IMG/VR virus record: IMGVR_UViG_3300027806_000003
Coordinates: 1-64,000 of that record
Direction: 5' to 3' (one strand)
From: a virus
Length of the DNA stretch: 64,000 nt
Shown here: positions 3,249-59,176 of the stretch, one piece after another
Position numbering within the stretch: position 1 is the first letter of the stretch
How the letters are laid out: every line of letters starts with the position of its first letter
Notes under the pieces: model-generated
What the model was told of the DNA's origin: nothing
The model's database searches: none
The model's input: the letters and a program-made list of their open reading frames with translations, nothing else
Made by a program: the position numbers and the translations under genes

Positions 3249-3740
3249 CTACATCGCCGTCGCACGAAGGTGCCTATGGCGATGCAGTTTCCGCCGGCAC
3301 ACCCGAAGCCATCGGTCTAGGTTCGTCGCGGCCCACCATGCGACGCGCACGGCCCGCTTTGCCTGCACGATGCACCCGCACCCCGGAACCTTCGGGGCTC
3401 TCACCGTGCTGATGCTGCCCTTGCTCCACAGCTCGAGGCGCTGCCACATCGGCGCGCCGTGAGTCTTCACGCGGATGTTCAGCCGCCCGATCGTGATCGG
3501 CGTGTGGACGATGCCCTTGGCATCCGGATGGCGGCCCTCGGGGCAAGGCAGGCCGTAGACCGTGTGCTCGTCCACCGTGTACCCCGACCGCGAGCACACG
3601 CCGGCATCGGCGTGCTCGCCGGTCTGCCGCATGTTCGGGCACGCCGCGCAGATGACCGCTCGCGTCACCGTCTGTCCGTCGCGCTTCGCGCCGTTGCGAC
3701 ACGCGATCGTGCCCTTTGTCTGTCCGCATCCGCAGGTCAT
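3249..3740 (-). CDS. Phage tail-end cysteine-rich protein, copy in prophage 2
   Basis: The ATG at 3740 overlaps the stop of the upstream gene (ATGA) and follows GGAGGAGGGAACC. The 163-residue product starts MTCGCGQTKG and contains several CxxC-type pairs (CAACPNM, CSRSG, PCPEG, GCGC), suggesting metal binding. Its first 76 residues lie in the 1,061-bp direct repeat and match the copy at 42461-42949; beyond 3513 the two copies remain homologous but diverge (GIVHTPITIGRLNIRV here, GVVSTPITIGRVSVRV there). Last gene of the late tail operon. Function unknown; the position suggests a distal tail or host-contact accessory protein. Confidence 0.75.
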   Translation of the reverse strand: MTCGCGQTKGTIACRNGAKRDGQTVTRAVICAACPNMRQTGEHADAGVCSRSGYTVDEHTVYGLPCPEGRHPDAKGIVHTPITIGRLNIRVKTHGAPMWQRLELWSKGSISTVRAPKVPGCGCIVQAKRAVRVAWWAATNLDRWLRVCRRKLHRHRHLRATAM

Positions 3741-6001: not shown

Positions 6002-6042
6002 TTCATTTGGCCATTTGACCACTTGCCCATTTGCCCATTTGC
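6002..6042. repeat. Octanucleotide array, ATTTGACC type
   Basis: About five units of an 8-base repeat related to ATTTGACC and ATTTGCCC, between the tape measure stop (6056) and the next start. Same unit as arrays at 18987, 23989 and 42463. Confidence 0.8.
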
Positions 6043-6055
6043 CGCGTCTTCGCGG

Positions 6056-9169: not shown

Positions 9170-9183
9170 GCCCATTCCTTTCC

Positions 9184-9231
9184 GCTTTGCCCTTTGCTGC
9201 TTTGCTGCTTTGCCCTTTGCCCTTTGCCCTT
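9184..9231. repeat. Octamer array, TTTGCTGC/TTTGCCC type
   Basis: Seven degenerate 7-8 base units of TTTGCCC and TTTGCTGC fill the gap between the tail tube stop (9244) and the start of the chaperone gene (9169). Confidence 0.8.
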
Positions 9232-9750: not shown

Positions 9751-9838
9751 TTTGTTTGCTGCTCTGCCCTTTGCTGCTCTGCCCTTTGCTGCTCTGGCCT
9801 TTGCCGATTTGCTGCTTTGCCCTTTGCTGCTTTGGCCT
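9751..9838. repeat. Octamer array, TTTGCTGC/TCTGCCC type
   Basis: The longest array of this type: about eleven units of TTTGCTGC, TCTGCCC and TTTGGCC, running from the tail tube ribosome binding site almost to the stop of the upstream gene. Confidence 0.8.
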
Positions 9839-10850: not shown

Positions 10851-10893
10851 ACGCCACTGCGCCACTCTGCCACTGCGCCACTCCGCCACTTCC
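10851..10893. repeat. Octamer array, GCCACTGC type
   Basis: Five units of GCCACTNN with 8-base periodicity between the stop at 10899 and the TTG start at 10835. Confidence 0.8.
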
Positions 10894-11605: not shown

Positions 11606-11620
11606 CCTCCGCCTTTGCCT

Positions 11621-11664
11621 CTGCCACTCCGCCACTGCGCCACTCTGCCACTGTGCCACTTCCC
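11621..11664. repeat. Octamer array, GCCACTCC type
   Basis: Five units of GCCACTNN abutting the stop of the beta-helix protein gene at 11671. Confidence 0.8.
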
Positions 11665-14062: not shown

Positions 14063-14073
14063 TCTCCCTTTGC

Positions 14074-14126
14074 CGCTTTGCCCTTTGCTGTTTTTCCCTC
14101 TGCCACTCTGCCACTGCGCCACTGCG
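14074..14126. repeat. Mixed octamer arrays
   Basis: TTTGCCGC/TTTGCCC units (14074-14098) run directly into GCCACTCT/GCCACTGC units, ending at the stop of the small membrane protein gene (14127). Confidence 0.75.
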
Positions 14127-14432
14127 TCACTCTGCCTTCAGATACCGCTCATTCCTCTCCGCCCGTCCTTCCATTCGGCCGAGCCTCTCCCGCACCGCCG
14201 TCAGGTCATCGCTGACCTTCTGCAGCTTGGTCTCAACGGCCTTGAGTGTCGTGCTGATCGACTCGAGCTCGCGTTCGCTGGTGGCGCTGGTCTGCCCGCC
14301 CTGGCCGAGCACCGACGGGATCTGCCCGCCGCCGATCCCCAGCGCCGCCGCGATACACATCAAGAGCACGGCCTGCGGCACCTTCAGCACCACCGCCGGC
14401 TTCTCCTGATGGCTCTTCCCGCTGATCGTCAT
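14127..14432 (-). CDS. Small membrane protein with coiled coil, i-spanin-like
   Basis: The ATG at 14432 follows GGAGG at six bases and gives 101 residues; an upstream in-frame start would lie in repeat family A. One transmembrane helix (about 14-36, AVVLKVPQAVLLMCIAAALGIGGG) is followed by a heptad-patterned coiled coil (ELESISTTLKAVETKLQKVSDDL to the end). It sits beside a lipoprotein gene, an arrangement shared with prophage 2 (48522 and 48737). An inner-membrane spanin or a holin is possible; neither can be proved from sequence. Confidence 0.65.
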   Translation of the reverse strand: MTISGKSHQEKPAVVLKVPQAVLLMCIAAALGIGGGQIPSVLGQGGQTSATSERELESISTTLKAVETKLQKVSDDLTAVRERLGRMEGRAERNERYLKAE

Positions 14433-14455
14433 CGCCATCCTCCGCATGTTGTATT

Positions 14456-14554
14456 CGGCCCCAACGGGGCCGAGGTGTGTAGCCACGGGTGCATCGCAGC
14501 GCAACCCGTGGATGTCTCATCACGCTTGGTCCTGCCCCGGCAGGGGCAGAGGAA
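14456..14554. repeat. Repeat family A, copy 1
   Basis: Three palindromic modules: CGGCCCC-aac-GGGGCCG, AGCCACGGGT ... ACCCGTGG, and CTGCCCC-ggc-AGGGGCAG followed by AGGAA. Same order in the copies at 23851, 24996, 39182 and 41800. Confidence 0.85.
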
Positions 14555-15160
14555 TCACGGCGCGCCCGCGGCCGTGCGGATCGCCTGGCCGAGCACATCA
14601 CCGATCATCTGGCCGACTTCGCCCTGGGCCTTGAGCTGCTCGATCACCAGCGCCCGCTGGTCCTCGCTGAGCTTGACCCAGTAGGCCACGAGCCGGTCAT
14701 AAGCCTCGTTGCTGGCCCTGGTCGGCTCGCTGGCCGTGGTTGTCAGCGCAAAGCCCTTCAGGTCGATGATCCCGGTTTTGGGGTCCACCTTGGCGTTGTC
14801 GGCCCTGATGTTGATGTCCGTGCCGCTGGCCACGTTGCCGATGAGCGTGCCATCGGGGAGCCTTCGCGTGTACAGCGTGCGCTGGGTCTGGTTTTGCGCC
14901 CACCAGCGGGCTTCCTGGTCGTTGACCACGGCGTATCCGGCCGGGCCGGTGCCGGTGGATTGGAGCGTCTCGCGTCCATCGGGCTCGAACACCCCGCCGA
15001 TGGTGATGGGGCTTGAGTTTTCAACGCGTCCGGTGGCCGCGTCGATCTGCGCCCGCGTCCCCGGCGCCACCGCCGTCTGCACGCACGCGGGCAGAATCAT
15101 CGCCGCCGCGGCGATCATCATCAGGGCCAAGGCCATCATCATCATCCTGACATTGCTCAT
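14555..15160 (-). CDS. Phage lipoprotein, o-spanin candidate
   Basis: A 201-residue protein whose first 26 residues form a lipoprotein signal peptide with lipobox LPAC and lipidated Cys26; the hydrophobic core is unusually rich in methionine (nine in 21 residues). The mature part has an extracytoplasmic beta-type region and a helical C-terminus (EDQRALVIEQLKAQGEVGQM). It starts after AAAGGAACATGCC. Together with the membrane coiled-coil protein downstream it could form a two-component lysis device or a superinfection protein; that is inference from the pairing. Confidence 0.65.
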   Translation of the reverse strand: MSNVRMMMMALALMMIAAAAMILPACVQTAVAPGTRAQIDAATGRVENSSPITIGGVFEPDGRETLQSTGTGPAGYAVVNDQEARWWAQNQTQRTLYTRRLPDGTLIGNVASGTDINIRADNAKVDPKTGIIDLKGFALTTTASEPTRASNEAYDRLVAYWVKLSEDQRALVIEQLKAQGEVGQMIGDVLGQAIRTAAGAP

Positions 15161-18986: not shown

Positions 18987-19021
18987 TATTTGGTCATTTG
19001 ACCATTTGACCATTTGCCCAT
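18987..19021. repeat. Octamer array, ATTTGACC type
   Basis: About four and a half units of ATTTGACC/ATTTGGTC abutting the portal stop codon at 19022. Confidence 0.8.
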
Positions 19022-20638
19022 TTACGCTGGCGGCGCTTCGCCGCCAGCGGCCTGCCCCGGCATCAGCACCGGCTCGATGCCCAGCTCGCGCTCGATCTGC
19101 TTCTCCTCGCTGCGTTCGGCGGCCACGCTGGCAAAGTCGCGCCCGCCCAGCTGCTCGGCCGCTTCGCGCTTGCTCATGAGGTTCGCGTTGATCGCCGCCA
19201 CCAGCGCCGCCGTTTCCTTCTCCGGGTCAAACTGGCCGATGGGCAGGCCGATCCAACGCACGCCCATCGGGCTCAGCGCGTAGGCCAGTTCCTCTTGGCT
19301 CAGGTCGATCACGCCCGCCTGTGCCCACTCGCGCAGCCGCCACTGGTAGATCGGCGTGCACACGGTCCGCACAAAGTGCGCGAGCATCATCCGCCGCTGC
19401 CGCATCGCCATCATCACCGCCGTGCGTCCGGCGTAGGCGGTGCTCTGGCTGGCGTCCAAAAGCAGCACCTCCAGCGGCAGGCCCATGCGTGCCCCGAGCA
19501 CCCGCAGGAGCATCCGCAGGCTCGCGTCAAACGACGCGGCCGGGTACGGGCTCTGCGGCATGCTCACGGTCACATCCTCGCCGACATAGTGCACGCTGCC
19601 GGCCGGAATCTCCGTTGTCTTGGGGCTTGTCGGGCTGGCCGCCGCCTTGGGCGCGCCGATGAGCTTGCTGGTCAGTTCCGGCCTGCGCGAAGAAACAAAC
19701 GCCGCCAGCCGGCTGGTCAGGTCGCACGCGCGGATGTACGAGCTGAACATATCGTCGGCGCCGATGATCCGGTCGATCATCCCGCGCAGCGCGCTGATGC
19801 CGCGGTACTGGCTGATCTGATCCACGTTGGCCAGGAACACCGCGCCGCGTGCATCCACGCGCGCGATGTCCACACCGCTGGGCGCTCCGTCCTTGAACAC
19901 CGCCACGCGGTAGCGCAGCACGCGTCCGTCGCTATCGAGCTCCAGCCCCTCGGCGGGCAGATCCTGGCTCTGCGGCCTTGGCCCGTCTCGCACGAGCTGG
20001 GCCTCGACCATCTGCACCGTCCGGCCGACCATCGGATCGTCGCCCTGGGCCACCAGCACGCCCAGCACATCGCCGTCGAGGTACGCCGAGCGCAGCAGTT
20101 CCCGCTGCAGGCCGCCCCAGCCGTACCGCCGTGTGTGCTCGGCGCTCTCGGCCCATTCGATGAACAGGTCTTCGATCATCCGGGCCTTTTCGGTCCGGCC
20201 CTGCGGCAGCACGGTCTGCGGGTACAGCCCATCACCCAGCAGGAAGTCCACCGCGCTGTCGATCAGCAGCGGCGCGAGCGTGGTGGTGCGGTAGGCCTGG
20301 CGTGCGGCCCGGGCCACGGCGCTCCTTCGCGTCTCGCGGGCGATGCGTCCGCCCGCGGCATTGATCGGCGGCGAATCCTTGCGACCGCTCGACAGATCCG
20401 CTTCGGTGTACGGTGCGGAGCCTCGGCCGGCCGAGCCGAACGACGCCGACGCGTTCATGGCCGCGCCCGGTGCGGCCCTGCGCCACTGCCTGACCGACTC
20501 AAGTTGCGCCCGCGCAAGAGCCGACCGCGCCTCCGCCTCGGCCTTGTCGGCTCGCAGGCTCGCCACGCTGGCATCCACGCGCGCGCGCGTGATCGTCGCC
20601 ACCTTGCCGGTGGGCCTGTTGCTGGGCTTGCTGGCCAT
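19022..20638 (-). CDS. Portal protein, lambda B-like
   Basis: The ATG at 20638 follows AGGAAAGGG and gives 538 residues starting MASKPSNRPTGKVATITRAR. Features of lambda-type portals are visible: an N-terminal helical region, DSAVDFLLGDGLYPQT, the tail RYGWGGLQRELLRSAYLDGD, and a conserved MGLPLEVLLLDASQSTAYAG stretch with the following YQWRLREWA. The protein would form the dodecameric head vertex through which DNA enters. It lies between small head genes and the protease gene as in lambda B-C order. Confidence 0.85.
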   Translation of the reverse strand: MASKPSNRPTGKVATITRARVDASVASLRADKAEAEARSALARAQLESVRQWRRAAPGAAMNASASFGSAGRGSAPYTEADLSSGRKDSPPINAAGGRIARETRRSAVARAARQAYRTTTLAPLLIDSAVDFLLGDGLYPQTVLPQGRTEKARMIEDLFIEWAESAEHTRRYGWGGLQRELLRSAYLDGDVLGVLVAQGDDPMVGRTVQMVEAQLVRDGPRPQSQDLPAEGLELDSDGRVLRYRVAVFKDGAPSGVDIARVDARGAVFLANVDQISQYRGISALRGMIDRIIGADDMFSSYIRACDLTSRLAAFVSSRRPELTSKLIGAPKAAASPTSPKTTEIPAGSVHYVGEDVTVSMPQSPYPAASFDASLRMLLRVLGARMGLPLEVLLLDASQSTAYAGRTAVMMAMRQRRMMLAHFVRTVCTPIYQWRLREWAQAGVIDLSQEELAYALSPMGVRWIGLPIGQFDPEKETAALVAAINANLMSKREAAEQLGGRDFASVAAERSEEKQIERELGIEPVLMPGQAAGGEAPPA

Positions 20639-20662
20639 ATCGCGTTCGTCCCTTTCCTGCGT

Positions 20663-20712
20663 TGCCCTTTGCTGCTCTGCCGCTTTGCCCTTTGCTGCTT
20701 TGCCGATTTCCC
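20663..20712. repeat. Octamer array, TTTGCTGC type
   Basis: Six units of TTTGCTGC/TCTGCCGC/TTTGCCC directly upstream of the portal ribosome binding site. Confidence 0.8.
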
Positions 20713-20720
20713 GCGGCCGC

Positions 20721-21242
20721 TCAGCCCTCAAGTCTGCGCAGTTCCGCCTCCAGCGCGTACCGCTCGGCCACCAGCGGCTGGAAGATCTCCCGCTCCTGCC
20801 GCTCGTATTCGCGGGTGATCTCCTGCGCCTCGGCCTCGAGCTCTTCGATCACACGCTGGCGGCGAGAGTGGACCTCAGCCCGGCGCATCTTGATGTCGTC
20901 GAGCACCTTGACCGGCTGGCCGATCTGGTTCAGCCGCGTGCGGATCTGCCCCGCCCGCTCGGCCCGCGCACGCTCGGACCGCTCGTGCTCATCGGCATCG
21001 TGCGCATCGACCTCCGCGGCCGCATCCAGCTCAACATCGGTCTCAACATCCAGCTCGGTATCCTCCACCTCGGCACCGCTCGCACGCGCGCCCGCACCAG
21101 CATCAAACGGCGCGGTCTCATCCCCGGCCCCGGCGTCGAGCCCACCATCACCCACCGGCGTCTCCGCCGAGCCGCTGCGGTTTGTCGTGCTCAGCGTCGA
21201 GGCCGCCGCCGCGTTCACGTCTTTATTGCCCTTGCGTGCCAT
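20721..21242 (-). CDS. Acidic coiled-coil head-region protein
   Basis: The ATG at 21242 follows AAAGGAAACAAGC and gives 173 residues. Residues about 1-35 are low-complexity, 36-90 are acidic (EVEDTELDVETDVELDAAAE) and 95-173 form a long coiled coil (RRQRVIEELEAEAQEITREY). Residues about 11-30 are encoded by the antisense of a 61-bp segment that is also found in the integrase gene (32078-32138). No family recognised; the place between terminase and portal suggests a packaging or connector accessory. Confidence 0.65.
   Translation of the reverse strand: MARKGNKDVNAAAASTLSTTNRSGSAETPVGDGGLDAGAGDETAPFDAGAGARASGAEVEDTELDVETDVELDAAAEVDAHDADEHERSERARAERAGQIRTRLNQIGQPVKVLDDIKMRRAEVHSRRQRVIEELEAEAQEITREYERQEREIFQPLVAERYALEAELRRLEG
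21152..21212. repeat. 61-bp perfect direct repeat, copy 1
   Basis: Matches 32078-32138 base for base, starting CCACCGGCGTCTCC and ending GCCGCCGCCGC, with different flanks. Here it is antisense to the coiled-coil gene; in the other copy it is sense coding sequence of the integrase. Confidence 0.95.
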
Positions 21243-22492: not shown

Positions 22493-22690
22493 GCCTCTAC
22501 CCATGTGCGCCGGTGGTGCATTTCTATGTCTCATCGCGCTCTTCGCACCTCCCCCGCTCGGCGGGGGAGGTGCCGAGTCCCAAGTGTCATTTGGGAGGCG
22601 GAGGGGGCGCCCGCCTTCAGCCCCAACGGGGCCGCGGCCTGCCCCCCAATAGCCACGGGTGGAGCCCGCGCTTCCCGGGCGCAGCCCGTG
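22493..22690. repeat. Composite cassette of repeat families C, B and A
   Basis: Family C copy 2 (22493-22538), family B copy 5 (22550-22611) and a partial family A (22619-22690) lie back to back in the gap between terminase stop and Nu1-like start. It shows the modular way these repeats are combined. Confidence 0.75.
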
Positions 22691-22696
22691 AACGCC

Positions 22697-24976
22697 TCAC
22701 CCACGCTCCTCCTGATACAGCTCCACCGCCATCTGCCGCGTGAACGTCCGCACCTCGTTTCTGTCCGCGATCGCGCAGGCATACACCTCGCAGTCCAGCA
22801 GGTGGTTGTCCTTCCGCCCCTCGCGCAGTTCCCACACCGCCATCGCGCGGCCGTACCGGTCCGTCGCCACCACTTGCCGCTCGGCGGTCACCTGGTGCCA
22901 GTACCGGTCGTGATTGTCGCCCCTGCGGACCGTGCCCCCCGGCTCGGTTCGGTCGGCGGTGTACGCCGGCCACCACCACCGCTGCTTGTCGGCCTCGATG
23001 CTCAGCCTGTCTGAGCCATCCCGTGCCGCCGTCGGCGGCGCCGCGGCCATGTGGCCAACGATCATCGTTTTGTAGTAACTGCCACCAACCATCAGCAGCA
23101 GCCTCGGCGCAGCGCGCCCCGCCGCACCCCTGCCCGCCCCGCCGATCTGGCTCATGCGGAAGTTCACAAGCCCCGGCCGTGATTCGCTCATGCCCTTGGC
23201 CGCCTGCGCCCCCGTCTGGTCGCACGCCGCGTACACCTCGCTGGTCCGGTCGCCCGAGTCCACGGCCAGATCAATGATCGGCAGGCCAACTCGCTCGATC
23301 ATGCCCTCGGGCCGCTCAAGTGTGTACCGCAGCCCCTGCAGGCCCGCCAGTTCATGCCCGTCGACCAAGGGGTACCGCCGGCTCTTGACCCGCTCGATCG
23401 CGCCGACCAGCGCGTGCCGATCGCCGGCCTCGAGCGCGCCGTAGTCGATCAGCCAACTCGACCGCCCCTCTGCGCCAAACCCGCGCACCACGTAGTAGAT
23501 CCGGTCGGCCTGCACATCCACGCCCGCGAACAGCGCCAAACATCCGCGCGGCACCGTCCCGCGTCGGTACCCGCCATCGGCCAGGCTCAGGCAGTGCGCC
23601 TTCATGCTCCCCGGCTCGATCGACCGCCCCACGGCCTGCGTCGCGCGGCCGAGCATGCCCGCCCACCACTTGTCCGGCGGGTTCTTGCCGAGCTTGACGT
23701 AGTCGTGCACCAGGCTCGCCCACGTGGTCCACGGCGAATACATGCCGGAGATTGAGAACGACGCCACCCGCGTCCTTGGCCCCTCGCCCACGACCCCCGC
23801 CCGCTCCCCGCCCGCCTCCCTCCGCTCCCACGCAAACGCAAAGGCATCTTCGGCCCCGAAGGGGCCGAGGGATGTAGCCACGGGTGCAGCCCGCGCTTGG
23901 CGGGCAGAACCCGTGGAAGCCTCCGCATCCGAATCCTGCCCCGGAGGGGCAGAGGAAGCTTCATCGGACCCGACGCCTTCCCCTTCTCCCATTTGACCAT
24001 TTGACCATTTGACCATTTGGCCCTTTTTGACCCACACCCCCCGCCGCATCATCGCCGCCTTGTACTTCTCATCGATCTCCGCCCCGCAGCACTCGCACAC
24101 GTACACGCACGATTGCTCGGCGTCCAAGGGGTCAACGTCATCACGGTCTTTCCCCTCCCAGTCCAGTTGCTCGAAGGACAACTCGCGGTACTCGCCGCAG
24201 TGGGGGCAGGGCACGTGATACGTCCGCTGGTCCCCCTGCTTGTAGAGCCGATCGATGCCCTGATCGGCGGCCCCCGGCGTCGACACGGCCATCCGCACCG
24301 CGGCGTCCTTGAAGGTCTTGGTCCGTTCGCACGCCAGTTCCCACGCGTCCTTGCTCCACTCCTCAACCTCATCACCGATCAGGTAGCGGATCGGCAGGCT
24401 CTTCAGGTCCGCATCGCTCCGCGTGCCGCGCAGAAAGACCGTGCTCTGGCCGATGGTCAGGTCGGCGATGCGGGCTTCCTTGCCATCGAGAGCGCCCGCG
24501 TTCTTGAGTTTGTTCTTGATCCTGGGCGTGGCGCGAATCGCGGGGATGAGCCTCTTGCGGTTCTGCTCGCGTGCGAAGTCCGTCGACGGGTACACCACCA
24601 TCGCCGGCCCCGGCGCGTTGTCGATGCACGCAAAGAGCACGTTGATCGCCGCTTCGGTCGCGCCGACCTGGGAGCACTTGATCACGACCACATCCGAGTA
24701 CAGCCCGCTGGCGGCCGCGTCCATGATGTCCACCAGGTACGGCGTGACATCGTTCCGCCAGGGCCCCGGCCTGTGGCTCGACTCGGCCGCCACACCGCGG
24801 TGCCGCTCGGCCCACTGGCTCGGCGTCAGCCGCTCCTGCGGACGGATCACCCCGGCGGCCACGCTCAGCAGAAACGCGCGATCACCGCCATCGGCCACCG
24901 CCGCCCCCCCCGCACCAGCATCTACGCCGGACGCCACGACCGCCACCGCCGCCCCCGCCGAAGCCGCCGCGCTCAT
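22697..24976 (-). CDS. Terminase large subunit, GpA family, with in-frame repeat insertion
   Basis: The 759-residue protein has a GpA-type N-terminus (LTPSQWAERHRG), ATPase with Walker-A-like KCSQVGATEA (about 96-105) and Walker-B-like LIGDEVEEW (about 199-206), a zinc-ribbon-like CPHCGEYR with a later CECCGAEID, and a nuclease domain with GVDVQAD and LLDCEVYACA. Between residues about 316 and 395 (WVKKG to RVASFSISGMYSPW) the gene encodes an octamer array and repeat family A in frame. This enzyme cuts concatemeric DNA and pumps it into the prohead. It overlaps the preceding gene by ATGA. Confidence 0.85.
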   Translation of the reverse strand: MSAAASAGAAVAVVASGVDAGAGGAAVADGGDRAFLLSVAAGVIRPQERLTPSQWAERHRGVAAESSHRPGPWRNDVTPYLVDIMDAAASGLYSDVVVIKCSQVGATEAAINVLFACIDNAPGPAMVVYPSTDFAREQNRKRLIPAIRATPRIKNKLKNAGALDGKEARIADLTIGQSTVFLRGTRSDADLKSLPIRYLIGDEVEEWSKDAWELACERTKTFKDAAVRMAVSTPGAADQGIDRLYKQGDQRTYHVPCPHCGEYRELSFEQLDWEGKDRDDVDPLDAEQSCVYVCECCGAEIDEKYKAAMMRRGVWVKKGQMVKWSNGQMGEGEGVGSDEASSAPPGQDSDAEASTGSARQARAAPVATSLGPFGAEDAFAFAWERREAGGERAGVVGEGPRTRVASFSISGMYSPWTTWASLVHDYVKLGKNPPDKWWAGMLGRATQAVGRSIEPGSMKAHCLSLADGGYRRGTVPRGCLALFAGVDVQADRIYYVVRGFGAEGRSSWLIDYGALEAGDRHALVGAIERVKSRRYPLVDGHELAGLQGLRYTLERPEGMIERVGLPIIDLAVDSGDRTSEVYAACDQTGAQAAKGMSESRPGLVNFRMSQIGGAGRGAAGRAAPRLLLMVGGSYYKTMIVGHMAAAPPTAARDGSDRLSIEADKQRWWWPAYTADRTEPGGTVRRGDNHDRYWHQVTAERQVVATDRYGRAMAVWELREGRKDNHLLDCEVYACAIADRNEVRTFTRQMAVELYQEERG
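23851..24025. repeat. Repeat family A copy 3 plus octamer array, inside the terminase gene
   Basis: Family A (23851-23955) and four to five units of ATTTGACC (23989-24025) interrupt the terminase coding sequence without shifting its frame. Confidence 0.85.
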
Positions 24977-25323
24977 CGCACCACCTCCGCGACTTCGGCC
25001 CCAACGGGGCCGAGGGATGCAGCCACGGGTGGAGCGCAGCGCAACCCGTGGACCGCCCCCGACTCATCGCCCTGCCCCAAAGGGGCAGAGGAATCGGCCA
25101 TCAACGTCCCGCCCTGAGCCCCCACGCATCCGCACGCCAAACCCGCAATCATCTTCCTGATCGTCCGCGGATCAATCGCGTGCCGCCTGGCCGCCGCCCG
25201 CGCGGTTTGGCCCTCGACGATCACCGCCCGCACCGCCTCAAACCGCGCCGCCGCCTCGGCCTTCTCCCCCTGCGTCCACCCCAGGCAGTACGCTGCCAGC
25301 CACTCTTCCGGCGGCATGTTCAT
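24973..25323 (-). CDS. HTH protein upstream of terminase
   Basis: A 116-residue product starting MNMPPEEWLAAYCLGWTQGE. Residues about 25-62 form a homeodomain-like helix-turn-helix (AVIVEGQTARAAARRHAIDP then RTIRKMIAG), as in terminase small subunits and transposase-like DNA-binding proteins. From residue about 78 the sequence is read out of repeat family A (24996-25092), so the natural C-terminus has been replaced or extended. It overlaps both neighbours by ATGA. A second candidate small terminase is the Nu1-like gene at 21544. Confidence 0.65.
   Translation of the reverse strand: MNMPPEEWLAAYCLGWTQGEKAEAAARFEAVRAVIVEGQTARAAARRHAIDPRTIRKMIAGLACGCVGAQGGTLMADSSAPLGQGDESGAVHGLRCAPPVAASLGPVGAEVAEVVR
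24996..25092. repeat. Repeat family A, copy 4
   Basis: CGGCCCC-aac-GGGGCCG, AGCCACGGGT...ACCCGTGG and CTGCCCC-aa-AGGGGCAG modules, wholly within the 3' end of the HTH gene. Confidence 0.85.
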
Positions 25324-31350: not shown

Positions 31351-32715
31351 ATGCCCCGCCCTCTGCCCATGATGCGAAAGCACGCCCGCGGCATGTGGAC
31401 CGTGCGGATCGACGGCATCGACCACTACCTCGGCCTGGACCGCACCGCTGCCGAGGCCCAATACGCCCAGCTCATCGCCGAAGTCGCCGCCGCCCGCGCC
31501 GACGAGGCCGAGGCGATCGCCGCGGCCCACGCCGCCGCCCCTGCCGGCAGCACGCGCCGCGAGCCGACGATCGCCCAGGTCATCACCGCGTACATCACGC
31601 AGCGCACCGCCGAGCGTGGCCGCGGCACGGCCCGCTACGACCGCACCAGCCTGCGCCGCCTGGCCAGCACTTTTCCCAAGCTTCCGCTCAGCCGTCTCTC
31701 GGCCCCGCTGGTGGCCGCCATGGCCGCCGACGCCCAGCAGTCGGGCCTTGCCCCCCGCACGGTCTCGCACGAACTGACGGCCATCAAGGGCCTCATGCGC
31801 TGGGCCGCGCTGAACTACCCGCACATCCGCCTGGCCTGGAACCGTGACGCCCTGCCCCGCGTCCGCGTGCCGCGCAGCCCCCGGCGCTACCAGCCCGTGG
31901 CGTACATCGCAAAGTACATCCTCGCGCACGAGGCCTACGACCCCCGCATCGCCCCGTGGCTTCGGCTGCAGTTCCTGGCCGCCCTCCGCCCGATCGAAAC
32001 AACCCGCATCATCCACGGCCAGTACGAGTTTCACCGCCCCGAGCTCGGCGAGTATGTCCTGGCCATCGACAACAAAACCACCGGCGTCTCCGCCGAGCCG
32101 CTGCGGTTTGTCGTGCTCAGCGTCGAGGCCGCCGCCGCCCTCGCGGCCGCCACGGCCGAGCCTCCGCCCTGGAGCTGCCCTCAGCCGGGCGAGCCGGCCT
32201 CCAACGCCTCGGGTGCCGATCAGGTCTTCCGCCGCGCCTGGCGTGGCCAGCACACCAAGAGCACCACGCTCATCGAGGCCCTGAGCGTCCGCCGCCCGCG
32301 TCAGTCTGGCGTCGGCCCGCCGCCGGGCTTCCCGCGTCACTTCCTGCGTCACTCGGCGTATCAGGCTCTTCTCGACGCCCTGCCCGAGCAGCAGAGCACG
32401 GCCAAGATGCTCGCCGGCCACGTCCAGCCCGGGGCCTGGAGCGCCTACGCCGATGCTCCGTGGCACCGCTGGCGCGATCAGATCAGCAGTGCCTTGACGC
32501 TCACCGCGCACGAGTCAGCCCTCCTTGCCGATCCGGCCTTCGCCGCCGTGCTCGAGAAGATCCGCGCCGAGAGTCCCGTGCGTGCCAAGCTGGCCCTGGG
32601 CCTGCCCGCCAGCCACCGCGGCATGCTCAAGGGCCGCAGGCTCGGCCCCCGTCAGCGTGCCCTTGAGTCCCCGTCCGGCGACACCGGCTCGGCGACGGTC
32701 GACGGCGGCCGCTGA
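31351..32715 (+). CDS. int: Tyrosine recombinase (phage integrase)
   Basis: The 454-residue protein (from ATG 31351; a GTG at 31336 is an alternative) has a SAM-like N-terminal DNA-binding region (TIAQVITAYITQRTAE), and catalytic motifs ALRPIETTR (Arg near 212), HFLRHSAY (near 330), AGHVQP (near 356) and nucleophile Tyr366. It would recombine attP with the tRNA-Asn gene. A 61-bp stretch (32078-32138, TGVSAEPLRFVVLSVEAAAA) is shared base for base with 21152-21212. The 3' end overlaps the antisense gene at 32515 by 201 bases. Confidence 0.85.
   Translation: MPRPLPMMRKHARGMWTVRIDGIDHYLGLDRTAAEAQYAQLIAEVAAARADEAEAIAAAHAAAPAGSTRREPTIAQVITAYITQRTAERGRGTARYDRTSLRRLASTFPKLPLSRLSAPLVAAMAADAQQSGLAPRTVSHELTAIKGLMRWAALNYPHIRLAWNRDALPRVRVPRSPRRYQPVAYIAKYILAHEAYDPRIAPWLRLQFLAALRPIETTRIIHGQYEFHRPELGEYVLAIDNKTTGVSAEPLRFVVLSVEAAAALAAATAEPPPWSCPQPGEPASNASGADQVFRRAWRGQHTKSTTLIEALSVRRPRQSGVGPPPGFPRHFLRHSAYQALLDALPEQQSTAKMLAGHVQPGAWSAYADAPWHRWRDQISSALTLTAHESALLADPAFAAVLEKIRAESPVRAKLALGLPASHRGMLKGRRLGPRQRALESPSGDTGSATVDGGR
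32078..32138. repeat. 61-bp perfect direct repeat, copy 2
   Basis: Internal to the integrase gene, between the first arginine motif and the HxxR motif. Matches 21152-21212; spacing 10,926 bp. Confidence 0.95.
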
Positions 32716-35779: not shown

Positions 35780-35822
35780 CTTGACTTTGCTGCTTTGCCC
35801 TTTGCTGCTTTGCCCTTTTCTC
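35780..35822. repeat. Octamer array, TTTGCTGC type
   Basis: Four to five units of TTTGCTGC/TTTGCCC between the stop at 35828 and the ribosome binding site of the gene at 35768. Confidence 0.8.
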
Positions 35823-38665: not shown

Positions 38666-38706
38666 TCACTGTGCCACTGCGCCACTCCGCCACTGCACCA
38701 CTGCCC
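38666..38706. repeat. Octamer array, GCCACTGC type
   Basis: Five units of GCCACTNN/CACCACTG just upstream of the HTH gene. Confidence 0.8.
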
Positions 38707-38777: not shown

Positions 38778-39860
38778 TCACACGCCCACCGTGTTTGCCT
38801 GCTCCGCACCGCCAACACCGCCAGCCGTTCCCCCAGCCGCCCCCCCGCCCCCGCCCGCCGCCACCACCGCCTCCAGCTCCGCCAAGCGCGACACCAGCGC
38901 CGCCACATCCGCCGCCAGCGCCCTGGCCGCCGCGGCGTCGATCCCCGCCCCCCGCTCAGCGCTCACGCTGATCCGAGCCAGCACCCGCTGCGCATGCCCC
39001 CTTGCCGCCACCACCGCCTTCTCAGCCGCCGCGAACATCGGCACCAGACTCAGCTGCACCGCCGCCGGCTGCACCACCCCCGCGGCCATCGGCCCCCGGC
39101 CATCGGTCTTTGATCCTCCCACGTTTCCTAACGGGGGAGGTGGCGAGTCCTCGAGCCGGATGGGGTCCCCGCCTTCGCCTTCGGCCCCGAAGGGGCCGCG
39201 GCCTGCCCCCCCAATAGCCACGTGTGCAACCCGTGGAAACGTCTGCACGCTCGCTCCTGCCCCGGCAGGGGCAGAGGAGAGCCCCGCCAATCCACCCCCA
39301 GCATTTCCCCTCGGAGTTGGACCAATCGGTCCAACTTCAAGGGTTCTCCCCGGCCCGCCGATGGCACCGACGATGATCTCGGCCTCGTGCGTGCTCAGCC
39401 GGCCTTCGTCGGCGTTGCGGCTGATCCGCGCCGCCATCGTGGCGTGTCCCGCCTGGGCCAGCCGCTTGGCCGCGTCCTTGGCCGCCGCCCGCACCGCCTG
39501 CTCGTTCATGTCCCCGTCGCGGCCAAAGGCCTCGCCCAGCGCGATCGCCCGGCTGACCAGCTTGGCGTGGAGCTGGCTCTCTCGCTGCCACTGCCCCCAG
39601 GCCCCGTGCCTGCCGCGTGCCATGAGCTGCTGCCGCACCGCGATCAGGTACGCCCCAAGCTGCACCCGCGCCCGCAGCAGATCCTTCTTCTTCACCGCCA
39701 CCAGGCTGGCCAGGCTCCCCGCCCGCGCGATACTCGCCCCCCAGGTCACCTCGAGCGTGGCCCCGTCCACCGTCGGCACCACCAGCGGCGCGTACACGCC
39801 AGCGCCAGCCCCAACGGCAACACCAGCCGCCGCCCCCGACTCAATCCGCAGTGCGGTCAT
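38778..39860 (-). CDS. DUF3102-like early protein with in-frame repeats
   Basis: The 360-residue protein overlaps the preceding small frame by ATGA. Residues about 55-105 (VKKKDLLRARVQLGAYLIAV, then QQLMARGRHGAWGQWQRESQ) resemble DUF3102-type phage proteins in which a helix with AK or AR is followed by a GxWxxW segment. Residues about 190-265 are encoded by repeat families A and B (39113-39279) and a GGCCATCGG array. The C-terminus is an alanine-rich helix plus a Gly-rich tail. The repeats seem to split a helical protein into two halves. Confidence 0.62.
   Translation of the reverse strand: MTALRIESGAAAGVAVGAGAGVYAPLVVPTVDGATLEVTWGASIARAGSLASLVAVKKKDLLRARVQLGAYLIAVRQQLMARGRHGAWGQWQRESQLHAKLVSRAIALGEAFGRDGDMNEQAVRAAAKDAAKRLAQAGHATMAARISRNADEGRLSTHEAEIIVGAIGGPGRTLEVGPIGPTPRGNAGGGLAGLSSAPAGAGASVQTFPRVAHVAIGGAGRGPFGAEGEGGDPIRLEDSPPPPLGNVGGSKTDGRGPMAAGVVQPAAVQLSLVPMFAAAEKAVVAARGHAQRVLARISVSAERGAGIDAAAARALAADVAALVSRLAELEAVVAAGGGGGAAGGTAGGVGGAEQANTVGV
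39088..39279. repeat. GGCCATCGG array, repeat B and repeat A inside a gene
   Basis: GGCCATCGG units (39088-39112), family B copy 6 (39113-39175) and family A copy 5 (39182-39279) are all within the coding sequence of the DUF3102-like gene and keep its frame open. Confidence 0.8.
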
Positions 39861-40614: not shown

Positions 40615-40949
40615 AGGCCACCCCCAGCGTTCTGGCCCTCGGCCATCGGGATGCGGCCCCCGGACCCAACGGGGCCGCGGGATGTCGCCACGGGTGAAGC
40701 GCAGCGCAACCCGTGGACAGCCTTCGCCCCCACAGATCCTTCCCCGCCCACCGTCAGATTGGCCAACCGGGGAGGTGCCGAGTCCCAAGTGTCATTTGGG
40801 AGGCGGAGGGGGCGAGCCGCTCGCGCCACCGGCCTGACCACCGCCGCCACCAGCCTTCGGATCGCGGCATCACTGGCCTCGGCCTCAACGAACACAAGCC
40901 GCATCGCTGCGGCTGGTGGTGTCGGTACAACGGGTCTGGTCTTGTTCAC
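40611..40949 (-). CDS. First early gene, C-terminus from repeats
   Basis: A GTG at 40949 gives 112 residues. The first 50 (NKTRPVVPTPPAAAMRLVFV, then DAAIRRLVAAVVRPVARAAR) look like a small DNA-binding or regulatory protein; from about residue 51 the frame runs through repeat families B and A and a GGCCATCGG array. The stop overlaps the next start (GTGA). As first gene after the immunity region it is in the position of a Cro-type or anti-repressor gene, but has no clear HTH. Confidence 0.5.
   Translation of the reverse strand: MNKTRPVVPTPPAAAMRLVFVEAEASDAAIRRLVAAVVRPVARAARPLRLPNDTWDSAPPRLANLTVGGEGSVGAKAVHGLRCASPVATSRGPVGSGGRIPMAEGQNAGGGL
40628..40813. repeat. Composite of GGCCATCGG units, repeat A and repeat B
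   Basis: GGCCATCGG-type units (40628-40660), a short family A copy 6 (40661-40720) and family B copy 7 (40739-40813) lie in tandem inside the 3' part of the first early gene. Confidence 0.8.
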
Positions 40950-41794: not shown

Positions 41795-41799
41795 CTCTT

Positions 41800-41896
41800 C
41801 GGCCCCGAAGGGGCCGAGGTATGTAGCCACGGGTGGAGCGCAGCGCAACCCGTGGACAGCCTTCCCCTTCATTCCTGCCCCGGCAGGGGCAGAGGA
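41800..41896. repeat. Repeat family A, copy 7
   Basis: A complete copy (CGGCCCC-gaa-GGGGCCG, AGCCACGGGT...ACCCGTGG, CTGCCCC-ggc-AGGGGCAG) directly after the repressor stop. Confidence 0.85.
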
Positions 41897-41990
41897 GTCT
41901 CGGAGCCACGATCCCGCCCGCCCGCACGCGACCATCGCCGCTCTCTTTGCTTTGCCGCTTCACCGCGATCATCATCAAAGGCCCTCCCTC

Positions 41991-42460: not shown

Positions 42461-42949
42461 TTATTTGACCATTTGACCATTTGACCATTTGGCTCTTCGC
42501 CTCCGCCCCACCCTCCACCACCGGTCCAGGTTCGTCACCGCCCACAGCGTGACCCTGACCGCTCGCTTGAGCGGAATCACGCATCCGCACCCGGGCACCT
42601 TCGGCGCCAGCGGCGTGCTGATCTTGCCCTGGCTCCAAAGCTCCAGCCGTTGCCACATCGGCGATCCCCGCGTCCGCACACGCACGCTCACACGCCCGAT
42701 CGTGATCGGCGTGCTGACCACGCCCTTGGCATCCGGATGGCGGCCCTCGGGGCAAGGCAGGCCGTAGACCGTGTGCTCGTCCACCGTGTACCCCGACCGC
42801 GAGCACACGCCGGCATCGGCGTGCTCGCCGGTCTGCCGCATGTTCGGGCACGCCGCGCAGATGACCGCTCGCGTCACCGTCTGTCCGTCGCGCTTCGCGC
42901 CGTTGCGACACGCGATCGTGCCCTTTGTCTGTCCGCATCCGCAGGTCAT
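42461..42949 (-). CDS. Phage tail-end cysteine-rich protein, copy in phage 1
   Basis: The 162-residue protein is the counterpart of 3249-3740. Its first 76 residues match that copy; the remainder is diverged homologue (STPITIGRVSVRVRTRGSPM, then LWSQGKISTPLAPKVPGCGC). The last residues, KWSNGQMVK, are read from an octamer array, showing that this end belongs to phage 1. It overlaps the upstream tail gene by ATGA. Confidence 0.75.
   Translation of the reverse strand: MTCGCGQTKGTIACRNGAKRDGQTVTRAVICAACPNMRQTGEHADAGVCSRSGYTVDEHTVYGLPCPEGRHPDAKGVVSTPITIGRVSVRVRTRGSPMWQRLELWSQGKISTPLAPKVPGCGCVIPLKRAVRVTLWAVTNLDRWWRVGRRRRAKWSNGQMVK
42463..42492. repeat. Octamer array, ATTTGACC type
   Basis: Three to four units of ATTTGACC forming the 3' end of the tail-end gene of phage 1. 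The rightmost octamer array seen; none was noticed to the right of the second repeat copy. Confidence 0.85.
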
Positions 42950-52344: not shown

Positions 52345-54486
52345 TCAGGCCTTGCCCTTGGACCAGGCGAGCCCGCGGCCATCGCCCTTGCCAGCGCCGT
52401 AGCGGGCATACGCACGGATCGAGAAGCCCAGGACGTCTGCCGGAGCGTCGACGGCCTCGACCGTGACGTCCTGATTGCCCTGGACAAAGACCATGTCCAC
52501 GGGCATGACCGAATCGCCGAGGATGGCGAAGTTGTCCTCCTGGCTGCCAGGGACGAACTTCGTCAAGGACATGAACGGGCTGCAGATCGGCGTGAGCTTG
52601 CCCTGGTGCGGGTTGTCGGCCAGCTTGGGCTTGTTGGCGGTCGTCGTCTCGTTGACCTGCTGGGCCTTGTACAGCAGATCCGCGGCGGTCTTGTTCTTCG
52701 TCGTGACCAGCACCTTGGTCGGCTGAAGGAGGATCGGCAGACCGTTCGCGTCGACCTGATCCATCAGCAGCCGCTCGAGGGCGCTGATCGATTCGATCGA
52801 GAAGGCCGAGTCCGCACCCTCGATGTAGTTCTTCCTGGCGGCGCTGATCTCCGTGCCGAGCATGGAGAAGAGCACCTTGTACGCATCAATTTCAATCTGC
52901 TGCGCGGCGTGCACGGCGAACATCCCGGGCAGGCGATCGAGCGCGCCGAGGTGGTCGTTGATGTACATGACCTCGGTGATGTTCACGATGCCGGCAATCT
53001 GCTTCGCCTGCGTCGTGAACTCGCTCTCCTGGAGGCTCACGTCCTGAATCGTGCCGTCCTTGGCGACTTCGCGCATCGTCCCCAAGAGATCGATCTGATA
53101 CGACTTGCTCGGCTGGAAGTTGGCGACGGGCCGCACGCTGCAGAACTGCCTCCAGGTCATGGGCTGCCGCTGCCACTGTTCCCGAAGGCGAGCGTCAACA
53201 TACGAGTTGAACACGCTGGCCAGGGGAATGGTGCTCGCCGAGGCGGCTTGGATCGTGCGCTTCGCCTGAGCACGAAGCTGCAAGTCCAGTGCCTTCGCGG
53301 CCCGGAGCTCATCGGTGTGCGACATGTTGACCGAGTACTCGCCGTGAGCGGCCAGGAACTGGCGGACGGTCTTCTGAAGCGACGAACCGAGGCTCAGGCG
53401 ATCGCCCTGCTCGACCGCCTGTGCGCCGAAGCGGCGGATGCGGTCATCGTCCTTCATGACTCCTGCGGTGAGGCCGGCCGCCAGGCAGAGGCCGATGGTC
53501 CCGGGCGTGGTGCCGCTGTTGATGTGCGCGGCGGGCGCGCTGGACGCCTTGAGCTTGAACACTTCGAGTTCGACCTTTTCGGCGGTCCACTTGTTCCTGA
53601 TGGCCTTCGCGGCCAGCTCGAGGTGGGTGGTGCCGCAGATCTCCAGGATCTTGCTCTGACGCTCGAGGTTCTGCGCGAGCTCCTCATCGCTGGCCTGGAT
53701 CGTCGATCGGCTGTTCGCCGCGGCCAGCCGCCCTCGGCTCGCGGCCTGAACGCCGGTCGCCGCGCCGGAGCCAGCGGCAGCCGCCTCGCCGGCCTTGGCC
53801 GCGTCGGCCTGCTCGGCGTCGTACTCCGCCTGCAACGTGGTCATCTCGTCGTCCGTCAGGTCCGCCAGGACCTTGCCCTTCGCCTTCACCCATGCCTCGA
53901 AGCCCATGCGTTTCTCCTTTGTTTCGCCCGCGCGCTGGGCGGCGAGCCTGGTTTCCGTGTCCGGGTCCGCGCCCGCCGCCACAAGCGACACTTCGCGGAG
54001 CCGTGACGTGGTGACGATTTCAACAGGGCCAACGACCTCGCGGCCGTTGACCACGGTCTTTTCTCCCGCTCTCAATTCCCTTGTCTCGATGACATCGATT
54101 CCAATCGAGGCCTCCCACGAATAGCCGTTTTTGGCCATCGCGACGACAAGGTCGGCCTCCGGGTACCCAATCGCGGACACCACGGCCGCGACATAGAGCT
54201 GGCCGGTGTCGACACGCGCCGACTCAAGATGACCGAGGATCTTGGACTCGTCGTGCTGACGCAGGAATGAGCGAGGCTTGCCCTCGCGGAGGTCGATCCC
54301 CGCCAAGTCGACGACGACCCCATCCCAGAAACCGGGATGCTCGATGCGGCTGCCTGTGTAGGCGAGACTCTCGAACCGCGGGAGCTTCGTGCCGTCCGCG
54401 TTCTGAAACTTCATGCTGCCGCCCGAGGAGGCGAGCCGAATCTGGCGCGTGCGCGAAACGTTGAGGTTGAGTCGGCGGGTCTTCAC
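52345..54486 (-). CDS. Prohead protease-scaffold-major capsid fusion
   Basis: One open frame of 713 residues starts at a GTG that overlaps the portal stop (GTGA). Residues 20-170 are a U35-type prohead protease: FLRQHDESKILGH with His78, SWEASIG with Ser127, and REVSLVAAGADPDT. Residues about 170-320 are a charged, helical delta/scaffold-like region. From about 330 the sequence is capsid-like, with RPVANFQPSKSYQIDLLGTM and GIVNITEVMYINDHLGALDR. No internal stop separates the parts, so processing must be autocatalytic. The mature capsid N-terminus is unknown. Confidence 0.82.
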   Translation of the reverse strand: MKTRRLNLNVSRTRQIRLASSGGSMKFQNADGTKLPRFESLAYTGSRIEHPGFWDGVVVDLAGIDLREGKPRSFLRQHDESKILGHLESARVDTGQLYVAAVVSAIGYPEADLVVAMAKNGYSWEASIGIDVIETRELRAGEKTVVNGREVVGPVEIVTTSRLREVSLVAAGADPDTETRLAAQRAGETKEKRMGFEAWVKAKGKVLADLTDDEMTTLQAEYDAEQADAAKAGEAAAAGSGAATGVQAASRGRLAAANSRSTIQASDEELAQNLERQSKILEICGTTHLELAAKAIRNKWTAEKVELEVFKLKASSAPAAHINSGTTPGTIGLCLAAGLTAGVMKDDDRIRRFGAQAVEQGDRLSLGSSLQKTVRQFLAAHGEYSVNMSHTDELRAAKALDLQLRAQAKRTIQAASASTIPLASVFNSYVDARLREQWQRQPMTWRQFCSVRPVANFQPSKSYQIDLLGTMREVAKDGTIQDVSLQESEFTTQAKQIAGIVNITEVMYINDHLGALDRLPGMFAVHAAQQIEIDAYKVLFSMLGTEISAARKNYIEGADSAFSIESISALERLLMDQVDANGLPILLQPTKVLVTTKNKTAADLLYKAQQVNETTTANKPKLADNPHQGKLTPICSPFMSLTKFVPGSQEDNFAILGDSVMPVDMVFVQGNQDVTVEAVDAPADVLGFSIRAYARYGAGKGDGRGLAWSKGKA

Positions 54487-56021
54487 TGGGCGGCCTCCTG
54501 CAGGTTGTTGTCGGCGCTGCCCTGGCCGCTCGCGGTCGATGATGCCGGCTGCGAGGCCTTGGGCTGCATGAACTCGAGCTGCGTGCCCCCGAGCATCGCG
54601 CGTTCGCTGCGGATCATGCTCGCTTGGCTGCGCGGGTCGCGCGTGCTGTACTGGCGGACGCAGTCGCCCCACGTCTTCAGTCCGTGGCGCACCGCTTCGA
54701 TGTCGGCGTTCATCGTCTTTTCAACGTCGACGTGCGGCCGGATCGGCCAGGCCCAGAAGGCCTGCAGTCGCAGCAGCAGCGATCGGAGCCGATAGGAGAA
54801 CTTGCCTTCGCCTGCTCGCGCCGCCCACAGCTGGTCGCTCTTGACGGCGTACCAGAGGTACTTGTCCAGGAGCGGGGCGATCACGAGCTCCTCGATCCGC
54901 ATCTGCCGGTCCTGCGTGGCCAGGTTGTACGACTGGAAGTCCAGTCGGGCGCTCGCGTACGAGTGCCCGCTGCTGTCGCCAAACGCGATGCAGTACGGCA
55001 TCAGCACCGCACGCGCCGCCTCCGTGACGACCGACTTGTAGTACTCGCCATACGTTGCGCCGCCGTGGCCGGGCTGCAGCATCTGCGCTTCCCAGCCTGC
55101 CGGCAGCGTGACCGCCATGCGGTTGGCGAGCGGGAGCGTCAGACCGGTCGCGACCTTGGCAGTCTGGCCGTCCGGCGGCGTGTCGGTCTTGAAGAACACG
55201 GCGAAGTTGGCGTTCGTCTCGGCCTGGGCAACCGTCGCCAGGCCGAACCGGCGAAGGTTGGCGAGCAGCGGGATGGCCGCGGCGATCGCGGGGAAGCCTC
55301 TTCGCTGGCCTGGGCGCTGCCAGTCGAATAGGTGCAGCATGTCCTCGGCGTCGACCGGCGTCGTCTCGAGCGACGCGCCCAGGCCGTTCACCTCGCCGGG
55401 GTGATCGACCCGCACGTGGTAGCGGATGGGGTTGCCGAAGGTGTCGTAATCGATGCCCGAGACATGCTCCGGCGACTCGAAGACAAACGGGGAGCTTTCG
55501 ACCTGGTCGGCTTCGAGGAGGCGAAGATCCAGCTGGATCGGGTGCTTGATCTTCGGGTTGTGGAGCATGACGCCGAAGGCCTCGCCGTCGATCGCCTCAG
55601 CGCGGACCATGACGGAGAGCTTGCGGCGCAGTGCGATCGCTCGCGCCCACTTCTGGAAGAGAACCTCGAACTCGTCGATCTCGGCGCGGAGGTCGTCGTC
55701 GGGCTGTTCGCCCATCGGAAGGTCAAGTTGCAGCGTCGGCCCGCGGCCGATCGTGTCGATGGTGAGCGTCTGCACCATGCCCGCCAGGACGGCGTTGTTG
55801 GCGGCTTCGGCGCGGCAGCGCTCGCGGGCGATGCGGCGGACCTGGGGTACCAGGCTCGCGATCGCCGAGCGGTCGTCGGCCGTCTGCAGGAAGTGACGCG
55901 CGATCTCCGGGGTGTTCCGCGCGATGTCGTACCGCGTGGCCTCGACTCGCGCAGGCTCAGCAGAAGCAGCCATGGCGGGCGGCGAGGCCTGGACACCGGT
56001 TGGAAGGTCTACGTAGATCAT
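54483..56021 (-). CDS. Portal protein, prophage 2
   Basis: The 512-residue protein shows lambda-family portal features: RCRAEAANNAVLAGMVQTLT, FEVLFQKWARAIALRRKLSV, HLFDWQRPGQRRGFPAIAAA and LPYCIAFGDSSGHSYASARL-like sequence (SSGHSYASAR motif). It forms the head vertex channel. It overlaps the capsid fusion gene and the gpW-like gene by 4 bases. Sequence is diverged from the phage 1 portal, although both belong to the same broad family. Confidence 0.82.
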   Translation of the reverse strand: MIYVDLPTGVQASPPAMAASAEPARVEATRYDIARNTPEIARHFLQTADDRSAIASLVPQVRRIARERCRAEAANNAVLAGMVQTLTIDTIGRGPTLQLDLPMGEQPDDDLRAEIDEFEVLFQKWARAIALRRKLSVMVRAEAIDGEAFGVMLHNPKIKHPIQLDLRLLEADQVESSPFVFESPEHVSGIDYDTFGNPIRYHVRVDHPGEVNGLGASLETTPVDAEDMLHLFDWQRPGQRRGFPAIAAAIPLLANLRRFGLATVAQAETNANFAVFFKTDTPPDGQTAKVATGLTLPLANRMAVTLPAGWEAQMLQPGHGGATYGEYYKSVVTEAARAVLMPYCIAFGDSSGHSYASARLDFQSYNLATQDRQMRIEELVIAPLLDKYLWYAVKSDQLWAARAGEGKFSYRLRSLLLRLQAFWAWPIRPHVDVEKTMNADIEAVRHGLKTWGDCVRQYSTRDPRSQASMIRSERAMLGGTQLEFMQPKASQPASSTASGQGSADNNLQEAAQ

Positions 56022-58870: not shown

Positions 58871-59176
58871 TCACAAAATTTGTTCGATGGTGCAGAAGAC
58901 GTGCTTGCAGTAGTCGCACTCGCGCCAGCGCTGGCGAAAGTTCGCCCCCACGTTGGTCTCGCGGAACCGGCTGGTCTTCACGCTCGCGTTGCAGCCACAC
59001 TTTGGGCAGCGGATCGGATCTCCGCTCGGCTGGTACGCGGGGTCGAGCGCGGCGTATGGCCCGCTCGGCGCTGCCGGCCCCGAGGTGGCATCTGCGGACG
59101 CGGGTGTCGGCGGCGGAGCTCCGCCGGCTGGACGCGCGGGTGGTGGACCCTTCTTGCCTTTGTCGCTCAGCCCCAT
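58871..59176 (-). CDS. Zinc-ribbon protein
   Basis: The 101-residue protein has a Pro/Ala-rich N-terminal half and a C-terminal zinc ribbon: CPKCGCNASVKTSRFRETN then WRECDYCKHVF, the CxxC plus CxxC arrangement seen in Ogr-type and NrdR-type proteins. It starts within the last codons of the terminase gene (10-base overlap). A transcription regulator or DNA-binding packaging accessory is likely. Confidence 0.7.
   Translation of the reverse strand: MGLSDKGKKGPPPARPAGGAPPPTPASADATSGPAAPSGPYAALDPAYQPSGDPIRCPKCGCNASVKTSRFRETNVGANFRQRWRECDYCKHVFCTIEQIL

Follow-up and report, generated by a model that had tools for sequence, protein, structure and literature searches.

Repeat DNA in frame within the large terminase gene of a putative planctomycete phage

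The gene for the large terminase subunit of the virus analysed here is interrupted by an in-frame insert of about 58 codons, which consists of an octamer array, a short spacer and one copy of a palindromic repeat (repeat A). The insert is a confirmed observation and not an artefact. Our preferred reading, to which we assign a probability of about 0.8, is that REP and octamer DNA of host type was inserted in frame into terL of a planctomycete phage and has been tolerated there. The window, a stretch of 64,000 bp, is part of a 79,354-bp IMG/VR record.

The insert between the ATPase and nuclease domains

The terminase gene and the components of its insert are located as follows.

22697-24976, minus strand: terL, terminase large subunit (GpA type), 759 aa, assigned by Pfam and alignment
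about 23849-24022, minus strand: in-frame insert, 174 bp, about 58 codons, residues 319-376, delimited by a drop in GC3 and absent in 33 homologues
23989-24022, plus strand: octamer array with four ATTTGACC-type units
23958-23988, minus strand: 31-bp spacer separating the octamers from repeat A
23846-23959, plus strand: repeat A, a GTAG-tagged REP with a hairpin on either flank, encoding SSAPPGQDSDAEASTGSARQARAAPVATSLGPFGAE

Read in the sense direction of terL, the four octamers come first and are followed by the spacer, for which no relative was found, and by the single repeat-A copy. On the sense strand the octamer array encodes the peptide GQMVKWSNGQM, and the reading frame stays open throughout the repeats. 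The proposal of the first-pass annotation that intergenic-type repeats lie in frame inside the terminase gene, and that they comprise repeat A and an octamer array, is thereby borne out. Pfam places GpA_ATPase at residues 67-315 and GpA_nuclease at residues 405-743, in agreement with the site previously suggested at the junction of both domains.

The extent of the insert was deduced from GC3. Native parts of the terminase have a GC3 of 0.88-0.89. At residues 319-376 it dropped to 0.57 (33/58 codons) versus an expected 0.885 (binomial P=1.2e-9), and at residues 377-395 it was again near-native with 0.84. Since GC3 recovers past residue 376, the insert is about 58 aa long and residues 377-395 appear to be an ordinary-looking linker. 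Hence, an insert is present within the earlier range of residues 316-395, but its size of 80 residues has to be corrected. The other called phage genes gave 13,488 windows of 58 codons, of which only 17 were as low; all of them are located in the gene at 38778-39860, where they fall on a repeat insert of its own. Chance similarity of the repeats is ruled out by the E-values and the GC3 test. Two contigs from other metagenomes are 100% identical over the insert region, so that an assembly artefact can be rejected.

The suggested alignment with homologues was carried out with 33 sequences from IMG/VR and Phycisphaerae genomes, in which the linker was counted between the positions matching residues 315 and 403. 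All of them lack the inserted stretch. Their ATPase-nuclease linkers comprise 6-42 residues versus 87 in the phage terminase, so that no homologue has a non-repeat linker of equal length. The two longest (L121 and L124), with 41 and 42 residues, come from Phycisphaerae genomes and show that the site tolerates length change; their sequences are unrelated to the phage insert. The exact position was not found empty in any relative, so that the insertion is deduced from homologues of 22-35% identity. The catalytic residues D487, D573 and D728 are invariant across the alignment and retained in the phage terminase, consistent with the former statement that the motifs on both sides are intact.

Structure modelling, which had also been recommended, supports the disorder claimed for the insert. 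AlphaFold predicted disorder for residues 327-392, with block pLDDT values of 30-38 over about 331-390, while both terminase domains mostly reached 70-95 with lower values in several loops. The model matches the large terminases of phages D6E, HK97 and T4, and no domain was found at the insert. S, A, P and G are abundant in the encoded peptide, from which trypsin would be expected to release AAPVATSLGPFGAEDAFAFAWER. Removal of the peptide, the other option raised before, is not supported. The Hint domain of inteins has at least about 130 aa; the insert has 58 residues, and Pfam gave no Hint-type match. A group I or II intron was discarded as well, as an Rfam search of the window returned zero matches to intron families. 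The insert contains no stop codon.

Repeat A and the octamers in Planctomycetota and in the phage

A 31-base core of repeat A was searched against 84,980 bacterial and archaeal genomes. The 45 matching stretches, one of which is the phage fragment L067 described below, all derive from Planctomycetota, mostly Phycisphaerales, apart from one uncultured bacterium. In IMG/VR the core was found in this virus only, also with a looser core pattern, and none of 42 tested terminase loci contained repeat A. Thus, repeat A is not a common phage element.

The host consensus displays a GTAG foot in front of a palindrome (CCACGGGT...ACCCGTGG) with a GC-rich hairpin on either side. GTAG precedes CCACGGGT 81 times in the host loci. 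Compensatory changes occur in the left hairpin, and the central stem is almost invariant. Ten planctomycete MAGs contain between 1 and at least 76 matches each, and inverted neighbouring pairs (BIME/REPIN) are common at host loci. Of 86 host copies, 85 are not mainly inside called genes; the sole copy that is more than half genic probably belongs to a run-on. Forty host open frames containing repeat A were listed, and the 14 longest gave mostly antisense or intergenic-looking translations (L079 and L053 apart), the open frame of L079 probably being a run-on into a sugar-isomerase-like gene. Foot, palindrome, copy number and intergenic position place repeat A among the GTAG REP families (PMC3733652), and it is apparently a planctomycete REP family that is undescribed in the open-access literature searched.

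Y1_Tnp genes are present in all ten MAGs. Twelve of them were examined, nine of which are of the GTYSQ type (one with GTHSQ). All nine (loci L144-L151 and L154) have repeat-A copies near both ends, including one weak upstream match, and no repeat A was detected near the three genes of other types. Repeat A is therefore apparently tied to one type of Y1 transposase, a link that is based on position. The Y motif of the GTYSQ-type enzymes reads YIAGQxEHH; the class 2 RAYT motif Y----NP is absent. Judged by motif alone, they would be subclass 1.2-like (Y---Q--HH). This signature has been described mostly from Cyanobacteria and Bacteroidetes, generally without terminal secondary structures (PMC6006769).

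Besides the terL copy, six further copies of repeat A were found in the window with E-values from 1.7e-7 to 9e-31. They are listed together with the genes that read through them.

14451-14556, plus strand: repeat A, intergenic
22614-22702, plus strand: repeat A at the 3' edge of terL, including the terL stop codon
24991-25095, plus strand: repeat A, in frame at the 3' end of the gene upstream of terL
24973-25323, minus strand: small HTH gene upstream of terL, weak HTH_28 match
38778-39860, minus strand: 360-aa gene reading in frame through repeat A and a repeat-B-like stretch
39178-39280, plus strand: repeat A inside gene 38778-39860, in the same frame as in terL
40661-40745, plus strand: repeat A, intergenic, followed by repeat B
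41796-41899, plus strand: repeat A, intergenic

Each of the seven phage copies stands alone, and their orientation is the same throughout. The foot is GTAG in the terL copy and GCAG, GTCG or ATAG in the others. Three of the seven lie inside called genes, where each is read as SSAP...GAE. In the small HTH gene, which overlaps terL by ATGA, repeat A encodes residues 77-111 of 116, and the edge of this copy is about 15 bp away from the terL start. The genic fraction differs from that of the hosts (3/7 vs 1/86; Fisher P=0.001), a contrast that is suggestive only, since no independent homologues were found for the two other interrupted genes. Repeat B, a CCTCCCCCG...CGGGGGAGG hairpin, occurs in the phage at 13980-14060, 18900-18980, 22564-22609 and 40769-40814; in the ten MAGs it had no match apart from the phage fragment itself.

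Octamers of the pattern (TTTGNCC)3 were found in five of the ten MAGs, and the reversed control gave zero matches. Of 18 MAG arrays checked, some of which are overlapping loci, 17 are intergenic. The exception (L172) carries the octamers in frame in a MAG gene, where they encode KWSNGQMVKWSNG, a peptide of the pattern seen in the terminase. Six homologues aligned with this gene all lack the octamer stretch. The gene has no Pfam match; its homologues and an RDHKPSN motif suggest a kinase-like protein. In the GGTCAAAT direction the array is stop-free in all frames, while the opposite direction has a stop in every frame. Repeat A and octamers occurred together once more, at MAG locus L176. Most octamer loci lack repeat A, which rules out a fixed unit of both. 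Three further arrays were located in the window.

6004-6043, plus strand: octamer array, intergenic
18995-19023, plus strand: octamer array immediately 3' of the portal gene
42463-42491, plus strand: octamer array from which gene 42461-42949 takes its C-terminal codons and stop

Architecture of the record and the putative host

The record contains two sets of head genes, around 15-25 kb and around 52-61 kb. The second comprises another terminase (59167-61263), portal and capsid set, with further coordinates 54483-56021 and 52345-54672. Repeat A, with its seven copies, and the ATTTGNCC arrays are confined to the region of the first set, and the second set is free of both. The repeat-bearing module is bounded by 313-bp direct repeats with 80% identity (3291-3603 and 42500-42812), each of which sits within a copy of one gene. 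An identical stretch of 44 bp is found at both ends of the record (1-44 and 79311-79354; 15311-15354 of L143). It is identical to the 3' terminus of the tRNA-Gly(CCC) gene of planctomycete MAGs, and an integrase gene adjoins the right end. The 44-bp stretch looks like an attachment core. This arrangement suggests that a prophage occupies tRNA-Gly and that another phage is nested inside it, which might have arisen by recombination.

One contig of planctomycete MAG 53600_E7 (L067, G003:C127; 3,577 bp) is 100% identical to phage positions 39236-42812. The same MAG has an intact tRNA-Gly(CCC) site and many octamer arrays. The repeats, the binning of this contig, which is no proof in itself, and the tRNA-Gly attachment site together point to a planctomycete host.

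Origin and fate of the insert

In our preferred reading, repeat A and the octamer array, both of host type, would have landed in an ATPase-nuclease linker that is naturally variable in length. Since the phage record has no Y1_Tnp gene, a phage-encoded Y1 transposase is ruled out as the mover and repeat A was most likely moved in trans, at a time when the phage may have been a prophage or replicating in a Phycisphaerae-type host. The insert presumably owes its survival to a total length divisible by three, a sense direction that is stop-free in frame and a disordered peptide rich in small residues, so that both domains would still fold and stay tethered. The peptide of about 58 residues is probably translated and remains in the protein, where its effect would be neutral or mild. 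We infer the act of transposition as well as the translation, retention and tolerance of the insert. The second terminase in the record could mean that the repeat-bearing one is under weak selection.

A stronger version, in which a subclass 1.2-like host Y1 transposase, of a type not regarded as acting on repeats, actively seeds REPs into resident prophages with preference for one strand and thereby rewrites phage proteins, is suggested by the uniform orientation of the seven copies, the common frame of the three genic ones and the adjacent module devoid of repeats. We consider it unlikely.

The best surviving alternative to insertion with tolerance is a terminase drifting toward a pseudogene in a defective prophage, in which packaging is dispensable and the open frame mere luck in GC-rich DNA. 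The presence of a second terminase, portal and capsid would fit, as would the position of the module between the 313-bp repeats, possibly nested in another phage. However, the gene runs over 759 codons without stop or frameshift, the catalytic residues are kept, GC3 is native outside the insert and intact frames with family matches are found for the remaining head genes of the module, which makes such decay improbable. Still less probable is a slippage switch, by which gain or loss of one octamer would shift the frame and turn packaging on or off in a fraction of the population. A unit length of 8, which is not a multiple of three, and about four nearly perfect units would suit this function, but the unit number is equal in all three assemblies and octamer arrays are widespread and mostly intergenic, so that no special role is needed. 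An insert with a function of its own, be it a regulatory linker or the contact site of another packaging protein, for which the 41-42-residue linkers of the two Phycisphaerae homologues might speak, is just as improbable, as the insert consists of repeats found elsewhere outside genes, is predicted to be disordered and has no sequence relationship to the long linkers.

Insertion of tolerated repeat DNA has precedents in bacteria. GTAG REPs of Opitutus terrae, Thauera and others are mostly intergenic, and some lie in frame in genes; their clusters encode up to 43-82 aa, and REP ends supply stop codons (PMC3733652). Repeat A shares with them the GTAG foot and palindrome, the intergenic bias, in-frame genic copies and a stop codon from the repeat end. 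It differs in interrupting a phage terminase, in its unit of about 105 bp, where hairpins flank the palindrome on both sides, and in the octamers that accompany it in the insert. The parallel drawn earlier with the Rickettsia RPE is apt as far as these are portrayed in PMC3733652, which cites them as palindromic repeats tolerated in frame in protein genes. The phage shows the same feature in three genes and in one frame; here the repeat is from Planctomycetota and linked to a Y1 transposase, the genes are those of a phage and the protein is a predicted one. As in REPtrons (TnpA-REP/RAYT classification, PMC6006769), an HUH-Y1 gene has on both sides copies of a palindrome that recurs many times elsewhere in the genome, but the planctomycete enzymes carry the subclass 1.2 signature Y---Q--HH.

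In-frame REPs and RPEs being known from bacterial genes, the kind of insert is not new. Neither a REP inside a terminase nor the phage setting and the planctomycete REP family was found in the open-access literature searched. The terminase takes in-frame palindromic inserts beyond bacterial genes into the packaging motor of a phage, illustrates the entry of host-type repeats into phage genes and marks the terminase linker as tolerant of length change. It also cautions that the linker between domains of a phage protein can consist of recent repeat DNA.

Other repeats were noted in the window. Degenerate octamer-type arrays (CTTTGCTG, CGCCACTC) occur at 9177-9231, 9755-9834, 10852-10890, 11619-11660, 14066-14136, 20650-20709, 35785-35818 and 38667-38704, nearly all of them intergenic and within the repeat-bearing module. 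A 68-bp direct repeat (21152-21219 and 32078-32145; 96% identity, 61 bp exact) is shared by two different genes, one of which is the integrase gene at 31369-32715.
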